Below, piece after piece: positions 6,599 through 25,464 of a stretch of DNA of 25,464 nt (position 1 is the stretch's first letter; each line of letters begins with the position of its first letter). Position numbers and translations under genes: made by a program. A model generated the notes under the pieces. It was given only the letters and a program-made list of their open reading frames with translations, made no database searches and had not been told where the DNA came from. Source of the stretch: a virus; the IMG/VR virus record IMGVR_UViG_3300046491_000189, positions 1 through 25,464 of that record; one strand, 5' to 3'.

Positions 6599-7207
6599 TT
6601 ACGTTTTGTCTTCGGCGTAGATCGATGCCGAAATGATCATCCCACCCCACCGGCGGTCGCCGATGCAGATCGGCACGGGGTTACCGCTGGCGGTGGTGTT
6701 CTTGGCGCTGCCGAAGGCATAGGACGGAGCGTTCTCGGGGGACGCACTTTGGGACAGGCCCTTGGCTTGGGGGCTGAGCAACTGGACAACACCGCCGATC
6801 GCCATCGATGCACCGGCCGCGTACAAAAACGGCGATGCGACTGCGAAGGGTGTGAATGACAACACATAGGCTGCGGCGATCATCACCGTACCTATAATTG
6901 TCTGCAGGCCGCCGGCACGCTTGCTGCCATCGATCACCGGAACAATGCGGATTTCCCGCGCACCGCCGAGATCGAACCTGTCTATTCCGATGTTTGTGCG
7001 ATTCCGGAAAATCGCGAACTTCAGCCCCAGGCGCTCCAGTCGCTTTATTTCTTGAGAAAACCCTTCGATCGTCGCGTTAAGCGCTCGAAACGCCTCCACA
7101 GCAGAGCCGCCATCAAGGAGGAATTGCTTACTGCGAAAGAACTTCTTAGACAGCGAACCGGAGAGCATCACTTTCGTCATAGGGGTGTAGGTAATTGCTG
7201 AGCACAT
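6599..7207 (-). CDS. I: Tail assembly protein I (lambda gpI-like)
   Basis: 202-aa protein matching the lambda tail assembly protein I family (PF06805). Features are an N-terminal beta-grasp-like part with LDGGSAVEAFRALNATIEGF, a central hydrophobic hairpin (about 103-140, TIIGTVMIAAAYVLSF and AAGASMAIGGVVQLLSP) and a C-terminal GNPVPICIGDRRWGGMIISA motif. In lambda, I acts with K at the tail tip during initiator assembly. The ATG at 7207 has TGGAGA upstream. The gene sits between two terminator hairpins. In lambda, K and I adjoin; here about 1 kb carrying a lipoprotein and a HIRAN gene separates them. Confidence 0.9.
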   Translation of the reverse strand: MCSAITYTPMTKVMLSGSLSKKFFRSKQFLLDGGSAVEAFRALNATIEGFSQEIKRLERLGLKFAIFRNRTNIGIDRFDLGGAREIRIVPVIDGSKRAGGLQTIIGTVMIAAAYVLSFTPFAVASPFLYAAGASMAIGGVVQLLSPQAKGLSQSASPENAPSYAFGSAKNTTASGNPVPICIGDRRWGGMIISASIYAEDKT

Positions 7208-7224
7208 GCCATTCTCCAGGCAAT

Positions 7225-7245
7225 AAAAAACCGCCCGGAGGCGGT
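7225..7245 (-). terminator. Intrinsic terminator after lipoprotein gene
   Basis: Minus strand: perfect 6-bp stem ACCGCC/GGCGGT with a 4-nt loop TCCG, followed by a T6 run. It begins a few bases past the lipoprotein stop codon, and the RBS of gene I (GCCTGGAGA) lies directly behind the T run. Confidence 0.85.
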
Positions 7246-7249
7246 CAGT

Positions 7250-7672
7250 TCAAAGCGTTGTGGGGAGTATGTCGATCTGTCCATCGCCCCCTATGAAAAC
7301 TCGATATTTCTTGATCGCGCCGTCTTTCACGGTTGCTTCACGCTCTACTCGGTCTGCCCCCAGCGAGCAGATGCCGGAGCCGGTGTAGGCTGCTCCCAGG
7401 GAAACGGAGTCTGGTGGCAGGTAAAAGGTGGCCTTCTGGCCCGGATCCAGTTTGGCGGCCTGCTTGCCGTCGATGAAAACAGCCATCGAGCATAGGCTTC
7501 CGGTGTGACCCGAGTCTCGAATCACTTGAAGAGTGCCATAGGCCCCGGCTGGTTTGACTTGAAAGGCTGACAACTGACTTGTAGGCGCCTGCCTAGCCTC
7601 GCCAGATGGAGTCGGTGAAGTCGCACACCCCGCCAATAGCGCTAACACCATCATCCCAATCCCAAATCGCAT
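7250..7672 (-). CDS. Secreted lipoprotein, probable moron (possible superinfection exclusion)
   Basis: 140-aa protein with a short lipoprotein signal: MRFG, a hydrophobic core GMMVLALLAG, and Cys16 in the lipobox LLAGC. Residues after the Cys (ATSPTPSGEA) form a flexible tether with no Asp at +2, so outer membrane sorting is expected by the E. coli rule. Residues about 37-140 look like a compact beta domain with FIDGKQAAKLDPGQKATFYL and two further Cys (about 61 and 102) that could form a disulphide. GAGGAAAAACT before the ATG is a good RBS. Not part of the lambda tail set; it lies between K and I beside the divergent HIRAN gene. By analogy with phage lipoproteins such as Cor and Bor it may mask a receptor or alter the lysogen surface; that role is inference. 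Confidence 0.88.
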   Translation of the reverse strand: MRFGIGMMVLALLAGCATSPTPSGEARQAPTSQLSAFQVKPAGAYGTLQVIRDSGHTGSLCSMAVFIDGKQAAKLDPGQKATFYLPPDSVSLGAAYTGSGICSLGADRVEREATVKDGAIKKYRVFIGGDGQIDILPTTL

Positions 7673-7771
7673 AGTTTTTCCTCATCCTGAAAATCGCCTG
7701 ACTGTATCACTGCCTTGCTTCGCTCTCTATGATCGGTGAAAACCAATCACACTAAGCAATCGGAATGCAAG

Positions 7772-8173
7772 ATGCCTCGACCGTCAGGAACACCAAAACG
7801 TGCAACTCTTCCAGATCTTACCGGCCGAATCCGAGGAACGATTAACTTTGACTTTAACGTTGTTGGCGAATCACATTTCCAAGCCGAACTACGGTACATC
7901 CGAAATCACATGTCAGTCGCATACGAAAATGATCTAGAAGCACACATTGTTACCGAGCCTAACAACCCGTACGACAAAAACGCCTGCGCCGTTTATATCG
8001 ACTCATTTAAGGTCGGATATCTACCAACGGACGCGGCTAAAGAATTTGTTACCCAGATGCGTGCAAAGGGAGTGTCAGGAGCAGCCTGTTTCGAGATTCG
8101 AGCGAAACTGACTGGTGGCTTTGGGAACCGACCGAATATAGGTGTTCTGTTGAATCTTCCTACTGGGAACTAG
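7772..8173 (+). CDS. Stand-alone HIRAN-domain protein, probable moron
   Basis: 133-aa plus-strand gene. Residues about 29-128 read as a complete HIRAN domain (PF08797): VVGESHFQAEL opening, EPNNPYDKNACAVYI with the conserved E-P-x-N-P-x-D-x-N-A core (62-71), and KVGYLPTDAA (80-89), ending in GVLLNL. HIRAN domains bind DNA 3' ends in HLTF-type remodelers and occur fused to nucleases or helicases; here no catalytic domain is present. The N-terminal 28 residues are basic and Pro-rich. The ATG at 7772 is preferred (GGAA nine bases upstream); an in-frame GTG at 7736 would add 12 residues. Opposite strand and less GC-rich than its tail-gene neighbours. A TATGAT at 7728-7733 may be its -10 but no good -35 is seen. 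Function unknown. Confidence 0.88.
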   Translation: MPRPSGTPKRATLPDLTGRIRGTINFDFNVVGESHFQAELRYIRNHMSVAYENDLEAHIVTEPNNPYDKNACAVYIDSFKVGYLPTDAAKEFVTQMRAKGVSGAACFEIRAKLTGGFGNRPNIGVLLNLPTGN

Positions 8174-8205
8174 CTCAGCACCGCAGGACCCACACCGCTG
8201 CTGCA

Positions 8206-8970
8206 TCAGTTGAGTGATTGTGCTTCTTTGTGCCTGAGAATCAGGCGAGTTCGGTCCAGCCACGGGCCACCAAACACAATGATCTCCGATGGTCTGCCGT
8301 ACAGGTGATGCAGCAGAAAAGGGCCAGGGCCAAAAGTAGAAGCATCTTCACCGGGCAGCGCTGGATCCTCACCGAGAAAAATTCCAGCATGGTTCGGGTA
8401 AACCGTTCGCCCTACTTCCATCACGACCATGTCGCCGCGCTGCGGCTGATCGACCCGGTAGAACCCGGCCGCTTCATAATTGGCTTCGTACAGGCTGGTG
8501 TTGTCCTTGCTCTCCCACCAGCCATCGGCGCGTTTGAAGGTTTCAAACTCCAACCCCCACTCACGCTTGTACCAGTCCGCACAAACCTGCCAGCAATCCC
8601 AGGCGCCATGCACGAACGGACGCTTCAACAACGCAACATCACCACTTGGCAATACGGTGCGCAGGTCACCTTCCGGCCAACTGAGAATGTGCCACGGCAT
8701 GGCGGTCGCTTCGCACATGGCCAGATCGCGCGGCGAAGGTCGGCTGGTTGCGTCCGGATGGGAGTGAACAACGCCAATGACTTCGCCAATATCCTCGGCC
8801 GCTGCGTATTGCTCAGGATCAATGCGAAACTCTTCGTTTGGCTCTGTCGCGATGTTCAAACACGGAAGATACTGTTGCTTGCGCCCAACTCCCAGCAGCA
8901 AACCGCAGCTTTCCTTCGGGTACTCGGCTGCCGCATGCGCCTGAATGGCGCTCAAAATGTATTTGCGCAT
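8206..8970 (-). CDS. K: Tail tip protease/peptidoglycan hydrolase K
   Basis: 254-aa two-domain protein of the lambda K type. Residues 1-115 are a JAB1/MPN+ (JAMM) metalloprotease fold with Glu20, His69 and His71 of VVHSHPD, Ser79 and Asp82, so all expected zinc ligands are present. Residues about 120-254 are an NlpC/P60 domain with Cys126 (GAWDCWQVCADW) and His194 (YPNHAGIFLG), so it too looks intact. K acts at the tail tip during assembly and may cut peptidoglycan at entry. The open frame extends 27 codons upstream into gene L; the ATG at 8970 is chosen because CGGAG precedes it and it lies 2 nt after the L stop. Its 3' end converges on the HIRAN gene with a 32-nt gap. Confidence 0.92.
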   Translation of the reverse strand: MRKYILSAIQAHAAAEYPKESCGLLLGVGRKQQYLPCLNIATEPNEEFRIDPEQYAAAEDIGEVIGVVHSHPDATSRPSPRDLAMCEATAMPWHILSWPEGDLRTVLPSGDVALLKRPFVHGAWDCWQVCADWYKREWGLEFETFKRADGWWESKDNTSLYEANYEAAGFYRVDQPQRGDMVVMEVGRTVYPNHAGIFLGEDPALPGEDASTFGPGPFLLHHLYGRPSEIIVFGGPWLDRTRLILRHKEAQSLN

Positions 8971-8972
8971 GC

Positions 8973-9722
8973 TCAACTCCGGGCGATCAGGGATACTGCG
9001 GGAAAACCTCCGAACGGCAGCGGATTGCCCTCGCCGAAGCGTGGAATGCATCCCCTACCTAATGTGGCGTCGCACTCGTCCAGTTCGGGGTTGTCGGTCA
9101 TGACGCCGTCCTTCGTGACGTACGGCCCGGTGTAGCCACAGTTCGGCCCGCGGTAGCCGCCGGTTAGGCACCAATGACATAAGGTCGTGGCCTGTCGGCC
9201 GATGGACTCACCGCCAACGTCCCCTGGACTGGCAAGATCCCAGCTGACCGTTTCCCCGTCCTCGTTCGTCTTCTGGTCGATGTACCAAACCTCGATCGTT
9301 TCTTGAGTAGGGTCGGCTGTCGGGTTACCGGCCGGGAAGTTCTGCGCATCCAGATACGTGCCCAGCGTGTGGCGCATCGTCAACTTGAACTCGAGTAGGT
9401 CGGCGAACGCCAAGCAGAGCGCCGTGATACGCCCGTTGACGTTACCAACCGACAGCGTTGGCCGGACCGCCGTACCATCACCGTTGGCCTCGATGCCATC
9501 AATCTGCATGGGCCAGGCTCCGTACTCGTTGCCCTGCCAGTAAATCGCCTTCGCCGGCAGTTGGTCCGCATCAACACCAGCGGCGATCAGTTCGGCTGGC
9601 GTGTACGGGATCGAGTGTCCGTGAAAGCGCAGAACATCCGCGCCATAGTCCGTGCCGTCCAATTCGAAGAGCAGCACTTCGCTACCAGGTTCAAGCACCT
9701 GGATATCACTAATCAGCGGCAT
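8973..9722 (-). CDS. L: Minor tail protein L, Fe-S cluster tail tip protein
   Basis: 249-aa protein of the lambda L family (PF05100). The C-terminal domain keeps a Cys set (182, 185, 195, 217, 225; motif CHWCLTGGYRGPNCGYTG). In lambda, four C-terminal Cys coordinate an iron-sulphur cluster; here five are available, the LCHWC motif offering one extra, and the same cofactor is expected. Cys103 lies in the N-terminal part and is probably unrelated. L joins with K, I and J in building the tail tip. AAGGGGC upstream supports the ATG at 9722. Gene order M-L-K is as in lambda. Confidence 0.92.
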   Translation of the reverse strand: MPLISDIQVLEPGSEVLLFELDGTDYGADVLRFHGHSIPYTPAELIAAGVDADQLPAKAIYWQGNEYGAWPMQIDGIEANGDGTAVRPTLSVGNVNGRITALCLAFADLLEFKLTMRHTLGTYLDAQNFPAGNPTADPTQETIEVWYIDQKTNEDGETVSWDLASPGDVGGESIGRQATTLCHWCLTGGYRGPNCGYTGPYVTKDGVMTDNPELDECDATLGRGCIPRFGEGNPLPFGGFPAVSLIARS

Positions 9723-24789: not shown

Positions 24790-25464
24790 TTAAACCTCGC
24801 CTATGGTTGATTCTTGATTGGCCTTGCAGGCCTTATGCTCTGCGGCTTTCAGCGGTTTACCCGAATTTTCGTTTCTACCGTCCTTCAACCCGTGAATACG
24901 GGAAAAACCCTTGCCGTCTAAATGGCCGTGCCACAGTTCGAGGGCTGCACGCTTGCGCTCTTCGACAGTGGTGTGGATGTATGCCTGCACGTTGTGGCCC
25001 ATGGCGTGGTTGATCAGCATCTCGCCAATCAGGAAGTCGATCCCCAGATCTGCCCATCCGGTCCGGGCCAACTTGCGCAGATCGTGACTGCTCCACTCGC
25101 CCTTCCCCAGCCCGGTGAACACGGCACTGGCCTGCGCCTTGCTCATGCCCTTCCCATTTCTAGCGGGAAACAGGAACTGCCCCTCGTAGCCGCTTGCCTT
25201 CTGGTGTGCGCGATACCCAATCAGCAGCGCACACACCTGCTCAGTCAGTGGTAGCGAGTGCTCGACTCGGGTCTTGGTGTTGCCCACCGGCAGATACCAG
25301 GTGCGTTCTGACAGGCTGACGTGCGACCACTGCGCTTTGCGGGTTTCACCGATGCGCGTGCCGTGGCAGAGCATCATCAGCGCGAGCATGGCCGGCTGTG
25401 GATCGGACTCGAAAAGCTCATGCAGTTGGCTCAGCAGCGCCTCGATCTGCACGCCGCGAAGACG
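24790..25464 (-). CDS. Tyrosine recombinase / integrase, C-terminal catalytic part (5' end outside window)
   Basis: The frame is open to the right edge, so the N terminus is missing; a GTG at 25452 is unlikely to be the true start. Numbering from that codon, all catalytic residues are visible: Arg33 (HGTRIGE), Lys60 (GNTKTRVEH), His123 and Arg126 (SSHDLRK), His149 (LINHAMGH) and the nucleophile Tyr158 (QAYIHTT), with the helix EERKRAALELWHGHL behind. This is the P4/lambda-like integrase family. A basic 40-residue tail follows. Unlike a typical integrase it is cotranscribed with and 2 nt from downstream genes leading to Q, with no att site or tRNA gene seen, so it may act in recombination or dimer resolution instead of prophage integration. 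Confidence 0.88.
   Translation of the reverse strand, partial: RLRGVQIEALLSQLHELFESDPQPAMLALMMLCHGTRIGETRKAQWSHVSLSERTWYLPVGNTKTRVEHSLPLTEQVCALLIGYRAHQKASGYEGQFLFPARNGKGMSKAQASAVFTGLGKGEWSSHDLRKLARTGWADLGIDFLIGEMLINHAMGHNVQAYIHTTVEERKRAALELWHGHLDGKGFSRIHGLKDGRNENSGKPLKAAEHKACKANQESTIGEV

Follow-up and report, generated by a model that had tools for sequence, protein, structure and literature searches.

A stand-alone HIRAN-domain gene as rare cargo of the variable interval that separates tail gene K from a near-fixed lipoprotein gene in temperate phages of Pseudomonas type

The stretch of virus DNA analyzed here (the window) comprises positions 1–25,464 of the IMG/VR record IMGVR_UViG_3300046491_000189, and most of the phage records that resemble it belong to Pseudomonas phages. 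The window contains an integrase gene, and the source phage is therefore temperate. The tail genes K and I adjoin in lambda. In the window, two genes on opposite strands lie between K and I, one for a stand-alone HIRAN-domain protein and the other for a lipoprotein, and they are divergently arranged with 99 bp between them (Table 1). These coordinates agree with the original prediction, which had placed both open reading frames between K and I on opposite strands at 7250–8173. Comparison of the window with two relatives (L004 and L005) gave dN/dS values of 0.035–0.066 for HIRAN, lipoprotein, K, and I, and the low values of the HIRAN and lipoprotein genes thus mark both as real constrained genes. 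For the HIRAN gene, dN/dS was 0.05–0.06, similar to the other three, and the gene is under strong purifying selection. No match was found for the HIRAN protein or the lipoprotein in an NCBIfam search.

Table 1. Features of the window and of related loci (locus handles precede coordinates outside the window)
Feature	Position	Strand	Remarks
Tail assembly protein I	6599..7207	−	phrog_32, E=4e-62; border beyond the lipoprotein
Intrinsic terminator 3' of the lipoprotein gene	7229..7246	−	GACCGCCTCCGGGCGGTTTTTTATT; same element in 12 relatives
Lipoprotein, 140 aa, lipobox LLAGC	7250..7672	−	phrog_890 'lipoprotein', E=6e-41, full length; near-fixed, upstream of I
K–lipoprotein interval, variable cargo slot	7673..8205		Holds only the HIRAN gene in the window
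Extended -10-like element, TG A TACAGT	7701..7706	−	28 bp 5' of the lipoprotein start; consensus match only
Possible -10 of the HIRAN gene, TATGAT	7728..7733	+	Weak; about 38 bp 5' of the start; conserved in three loci
Stand-alone HIRAN-domain protein, 133 aa, variable cargo gene	7772..8173	+	PF08797; on the strand opposite to the tail operon
Tail tip assembly protein K (JAB + NlpC/P60)	8206..8976	−	phrog_30; slot border
Integrase, truncated by the window end	24790..25452	−	phrog_1, E=1e-33
FtsK_gamma + HIRAN fusions, Pseudomonas islands	L108:1090-1890; L109:1093-1887; L215:7197-8156		
HigB	L054:4532-4813		Slot cargo
HigA	L054:4218-4508		Slot cargo, with HigB
SocA/Panacea	L013:4037-4510		Slot cargo
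AbiU2 HEPN	L068:4329-4919		Slot cargo
Imm_superinfect (superinfection-immunity family)	L035:4577-4948		Slot cargo
NucS_C nuclease	L021:2119-2823		Slot cargo
Trypsin-like protein	L053:3224-4105		Slot cargo; PADLOC PDC-S45 at 4e-86

The 133-aa protein scored 38.8 bits with the PF08797 profile (E=8e-10), above the cut-off of 24.7, which confirms the HIRAN call made earlier from the sequence. The expected core motif is intact (EPNNPYDKNA), and a Pfam search found no second domain in the protein, in line with the earlier claim that no nuclease or helicase is attached. Translation from the ATG yields 133 aa, and a start at a GTG further upstream would yield 145 aa; both of the closest relatives likewise encode 133 aa from the equivalent ATG. 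A structure model built from 23 relatives out of viral contigs (mean pLDDT 75.5) superseded an earlier, poor model from 4 sequences (pLDDT 60). When this model was submitted to Foldseek, the 17 best rows were all the HIRAN domain of HLTF or lp_0118, and VIA Z scores across 89–95 residues were 7.4 for lp_0118 and 6.5 for HLTF, values that are under 8 and compare with at most 3.5 for unrelated rows. On the basis of the model, the window protein has the HIRAN (OB-like) fold, and it shares with HLTF HIRAN (PDB 4s0n, 4xzf, 5bnh, and 6kcs) and lp_0118 (3k2y) both this fold and the core motif residues N65, Y67, and D68.

DNA ends are bound by HIRAN domains (PMC4666394, PMC8262856), and in HLTF, tyrosines 72 and 93 flank the dinucleotide pocket (PMC4666394). 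When the pocket residues were mapped onto HLTF by motif anchoring rather than via a solved complex, HLTF Y72, N91, Y93, D94, and K113 corresponded to H35, N65, Y67, D68, and T86 of the window protein, of which N65, Y67, and D68 are kept. The position of K113, Thr in the window, is Arg or Lys in all 22 other sequences, and the position of R71 is Ser in every aligned sequence (the window and the 22 others); end binding may therefore be weaker or different. As DNA ends are bound by this fold family in the case of HLTF, DNA-end binding by the window protein is plausible. The window protein further differs from HLTF in standing alone, without a helicase or RING, and from both HLTF and lp_0118 in a pre-core loop that is about 11 residues longer. 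This bare gene offers a minimal natural test of the function of prokaryotic HIRAN domains, which one paper has termed uncharacterised (PMC11090510).

The two neighbors differ in their standing within the junction. The earlier claim of a lipobox is borne out by the LLAGC motif and the phrog_890 match of the lipoprotein, whose gene lies 46 bp upstream of I in most of the loci recovered with the lipoprotein as the query (73 viral contigs and 7 Pseudomonas genomes) and is followed by the same terminator in all 12 relatives displayed. TGnTAnnnT-like elements, which are consensus matches only, precede the gene in many relatives; no recognisable -35 was seen upstream of its -10-like element in the window. 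A second sample of 80 loci was anchored on tail protein I, which avoids selection by the lipoprotein; it consists of the best 80 matches to I and thus represents relatives of the window phage, not all lambda-like phages. Among the 69 K–I junctions in this sample (loci with both genes), a lipoprotein of this family was present in 68 and a HIRAN gene in 3, and K abutted I in none, the gap being 470–4251 bp with a median of 1646. Since the lipoprotein is near-constant across junctions and its terminator is conserved, its status as a near-fixed gene that borders the slot and ends in a terminator of its own is well supported, the variable part lying between K and the lipoprotein. Only the HIRAN gene is therefore inserted cargo relative to kin. 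The original prediction had taken both genes to be inserted as one cassette, which was not confirmed for the lipoprotein.

In the lipoprotein-anchored loci, the K–lipoprotein slot is 488–4709 bp long, and with alignment over half of the longer slot as the requirement for a shared type, the 73 slots (72 relatives and the window) fell into 53 distinct types. Mean GC content is 0.50 for slots versus 0.58 for the loci, and 0.478 for the HIRAN gene versus 0.576 for the window, 0.569 for K, and 0.571 for I. The gene thus shows what is expected of a moron, namely a GC content unlike that of its neighbors and a site where close kin mostly lack it, and the existence of a variable slot for morons, bordered by the near-fixed lipoprotein gene and only rarely occupied by HIRAN, is well supported. 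The earlier reading of the gene as lysogen cargo is accordingly supported, with HIRAN absent from most relatives and the phage temperate by its integrase. The suggestion of a "two-layer" pairing, in which HIRAN and the lipoprotein form one functional cassette, fared otherwise. The two genes are divergent neighbors and keep this arrangement in three related phages; however, the lipoprotein is present whatever the cargo, beside dozens of other slot contents and nearly always without HIRAN, in four loci (L089, L090, L092, and L096) HIRAN is separated from the lipoprotein or I by other ORFs, and in L087 HIRAN lies elsewhere in the phage genome. A functional pairing is thus very improbable, and the two-gene cassette was rejected by the I-anchored sample. 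Full-text literature searches, whose coverage lay mostly outside subscription journals, found no published K–I cargo slot or HIRAN moron.

Neighboring intervals vary as well: that between I and J measures about 60 bp here and 0.2–1 kb in many relatives (e.g., L008, L014, and L025), and that between L and K is about 0.9 kb in several loci (L006, L042, L044, L063, and L080). In many loci (e.g., L013, L015, and L041), TGATGCGGCAnnGCCGCnGGAG recurs after the stop codon of K; it combines a hairpin-like GCGGC/GCCGC with a ribosome-binding site and is followed by short late-strand ORFs resembling the ends of tail fibre J. Another element, TATGACCTGGAGGTCA, is repeated in many slots directly upstream of small antiparallel cargo ORFs (e.g., L014:3029 and L062:4022) and could be an expression signal common to slots.

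The orientation of the HIRAN gene is constant relative to K, to which it is antiparallel in all nine loci holding both (the window, L002, L003, L089–L093, and L096). A role in tail assembly was rejected because most relatives lack the gene and because it runs antiparallel; HIRAN is therefore no fixed gene of the tail operon, and on this count the cargo reading stands. A promoter scan of 7150–8300 found none above chance for the HIRAN gene. Its -10-like hexamer reads TATTAT in L002 and L003, in which a 15-bp hairpin, absent from the window, lies between HIRAN and K.

A wider search recovered 21 further HIRAN loci beyond L002 and L003 (L093 being the contig of L025). The HIRAN proteins of L092 and L096 are 82% identical and their K proteins 46%, whereas those of the window and L093 are 53% identical with K at 90%. 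Because HIRAN and K are discordant in their relatedness, HIRAN entered or was exchanged in the slot more than once, and the gene has, as judged by these identities, moved horizontally between tail backbones. In L087, a 58%-identical HIRAN gene, also antiparallel, adjoins a tape-measure-like ORF of another phage, the tail genes there being read from ORFs only. A hydrophobic, probably membrane-spanning N-terminus was observed on the HIRAN proteins of L087 (L087:4710-5387), L098, L099, and L100. At L088:4854-5727, in the vicinity of a P63C-like ORF, two different HIRAN genes (175 and 110 aa) adjoin, and the record L084 (MT836498.1), which is labelled human fecal bacteriophage, contains genes for a Pseudomonas-type lipoprotein, a KilA-N-like protein, and a HIRAN protein, among other cargo.

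A direct search of genome contigs with the window HIRAN protein gave no match; HIRAN matches were found in 3 of 199 sampled Pseudomonas genomes, with one more from a later search, and a plasmid search gave one weak match. In the longer relatives from Pseudomonas genomes (264–319 aa), HIRAN is preceded by an FtsK gamma domain (E about 1e-21), and in the fusions L108, L109, and L215 the gamma part shares about 60% identity with the FtsK gamma domains of the hosts. In FtsK itself, the gamma domain is a reader of sequences that mark chromosome polarity. The phage forms (L025, L084, and L091–L096) have a similar N-terminus with an FtsK gamma score that is at most marginal (0.043 in L025). A query with the FtsK_gamma–HIRAN protein mainly recovered the hosts' own FtsK, true fusions being confined to few loci, and a literature search found no paper on this fusion. 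Two fusion-carrying chromosomal islands (L213/L214 and L215) bear a phage-type integrase, and on the L212 island, GajA (E 1e-196) and GajB (E 1e-165) are encoded at L212:7287-10446, about 4–7 kb from the FtsK_gamma–HIRAN gene. The FtsK gamma domain of these relatives, together with the action of HLTF HIRAN in fork reversal (PMC4666394), might suggest lysogen maintenance or repair, in which the prophage would benefit its host by supplying a factor that assists when forks stall or chromosomes break. This role seems distinctly unlikely, since the patchy presence of HIRAN, in 3 of 69 junctions and in few Pseudomonas genomes, fits conflict genes better than housekeeping.

The content of the slots bears on a conflict role. 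When 96 slot ORFs, some of them surely spurious, were scanned together with the window protein, many slot genes matched no known family, and P63C, KilA-N, and BRO-N were found in addition to the families in Table 1. Known or candidate defence genes are present among the slot contents (AbiU2 HEPN, Imm_superinfect, HigBA, PDC-S45, and others), which is a statement of presence and not of enrichment, the PADLOC PDC models themselves representing candidate systems. In a counter-defence role, an early HIRAN protein would cover the DNA ends or gaps of the phage itself against RecBCD-type or end-sensing host systems. The end binding of HIRAN domains (PMC4666394, PMC8262856), the need of a phage to protect its linear DNA, and the position of the gene off the late strand are all in keeping with this role, but it is unlikely: the other slot cargo that can be recognised has the look of toxin–antitoxin, abortive, or superinfection genes and not of anti-defence genes, the related FtsK_gamma–HIRAN gene beside Gabija lies on the defender's side, and the HIRAN gene has no link to a recombination module.

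The slim chance of a regulatory or partner role must also be considered, in which the protein would be the DNA-binding, antitoxin-like part of a HipN-type arrangement (HipS-like + HIRAN) whose toxin is missing. HIRAN domains occur in putative HipI/HipN toxin–antitoxin operons (PMC8262856) and beside diDNase and HipA genes (PMC11706625), and the PADLOC model PDC-M03B matches the window protein weakly and at the domain level only (E about 1e-5; 7e-6). The HIRAN domain is thus common to HipN and PDC-M03B proteins and the window protein, but the latter has neither a HipS-like part nor any other second Pfam domain, and the slot holds this one gene between K and the lipoprotein with no adjacent kinase gene that could be its partner. 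Moreover, the strong constraint on the bare HIRAN form means that it is no decaying remnant.

The slot companions, the mobile islands, and the Gabija neighbor lean toward a general conflict role, and we see about an even chance that the HIRAN gene is a prophage moron whose product probably binds DNA ends in phage–phage or phage–host conflict. A moron that runs against the late operon could be expressed from the prophage while the late genes are silent. Its bare OB-like domain would most likely bind 3' single-stranded DNA ends, and it would likeliest be used in the lysogen or early after infection, where it may recognise the ends of incoming or replicating DNA in conflict with competing phages or with systems of the host. 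Among the chief sources of anti-phage genes in bacteria are prophages, and variable slots with fixed borders are a proven route to their discovery. Tentatively, the HIRAN family in its bare, membrane-anchored, and FtsK gamma-fused forms, borne by prophages or islands, could be an unrecognised end-sensing anti-phage module, and the K–lipoprotein interval of Pseudomonas temperate phages a rich hotspot of such single-gene systems. As members of this putative module, HIRAN proteins would sense the exposed ends of linear phage DNA as it enters the cell. Dozens of compact cargo genes, for the most part without annotation, are available in the interval, flanked by two markers that are easily spotted in Pseudomonas phages.

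Several known systems resemble this locus in part. The Lpp exclusion lipoproteins of the mEpimmI coliphages (PMC11893012) likewise come from prophage genes located within the structural cluster, and the window lipoprotein has both the lipobox and the structural-cluster location of superinfection-exclusion lipoproteins; the likeness of the phrog_890 lipoprotein consists in these two traits, and exclusion by it is putative. Defence hotspots known from P2-like phages and from P4 satellites (PMC9122126) similarly combine fixed borders with highly variable content that includes several known or candidate defence families. The K–lipoprotein slot likewise has variable content between conserved genes but differs in its phage type and its location in the tail tip region; much of its content is without known family, and protection by it is putative. 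A parallel in arrangement is Tab of Pseudomonas phage JBD26, a moron of a P. aeruginosa prophage that is encoded within the late operon but on its other strand, has its own promoter, and blocks rival phages (PMC10884400), and Tab is thus a precedent for a defence moron opposite to the late operon strand. Both are small opposite-strand genes in the late operon of Pseudomonas-type prophages, with no sequence relation claimed. In contrast to the window gene, Tab is located between the genes for terminase, acts on the tape-measure protein, and is paired with an anti-Tab, and its promoter has been demonstrated, whereas the window HIRAN gene has a conserved -10-like hexamer.
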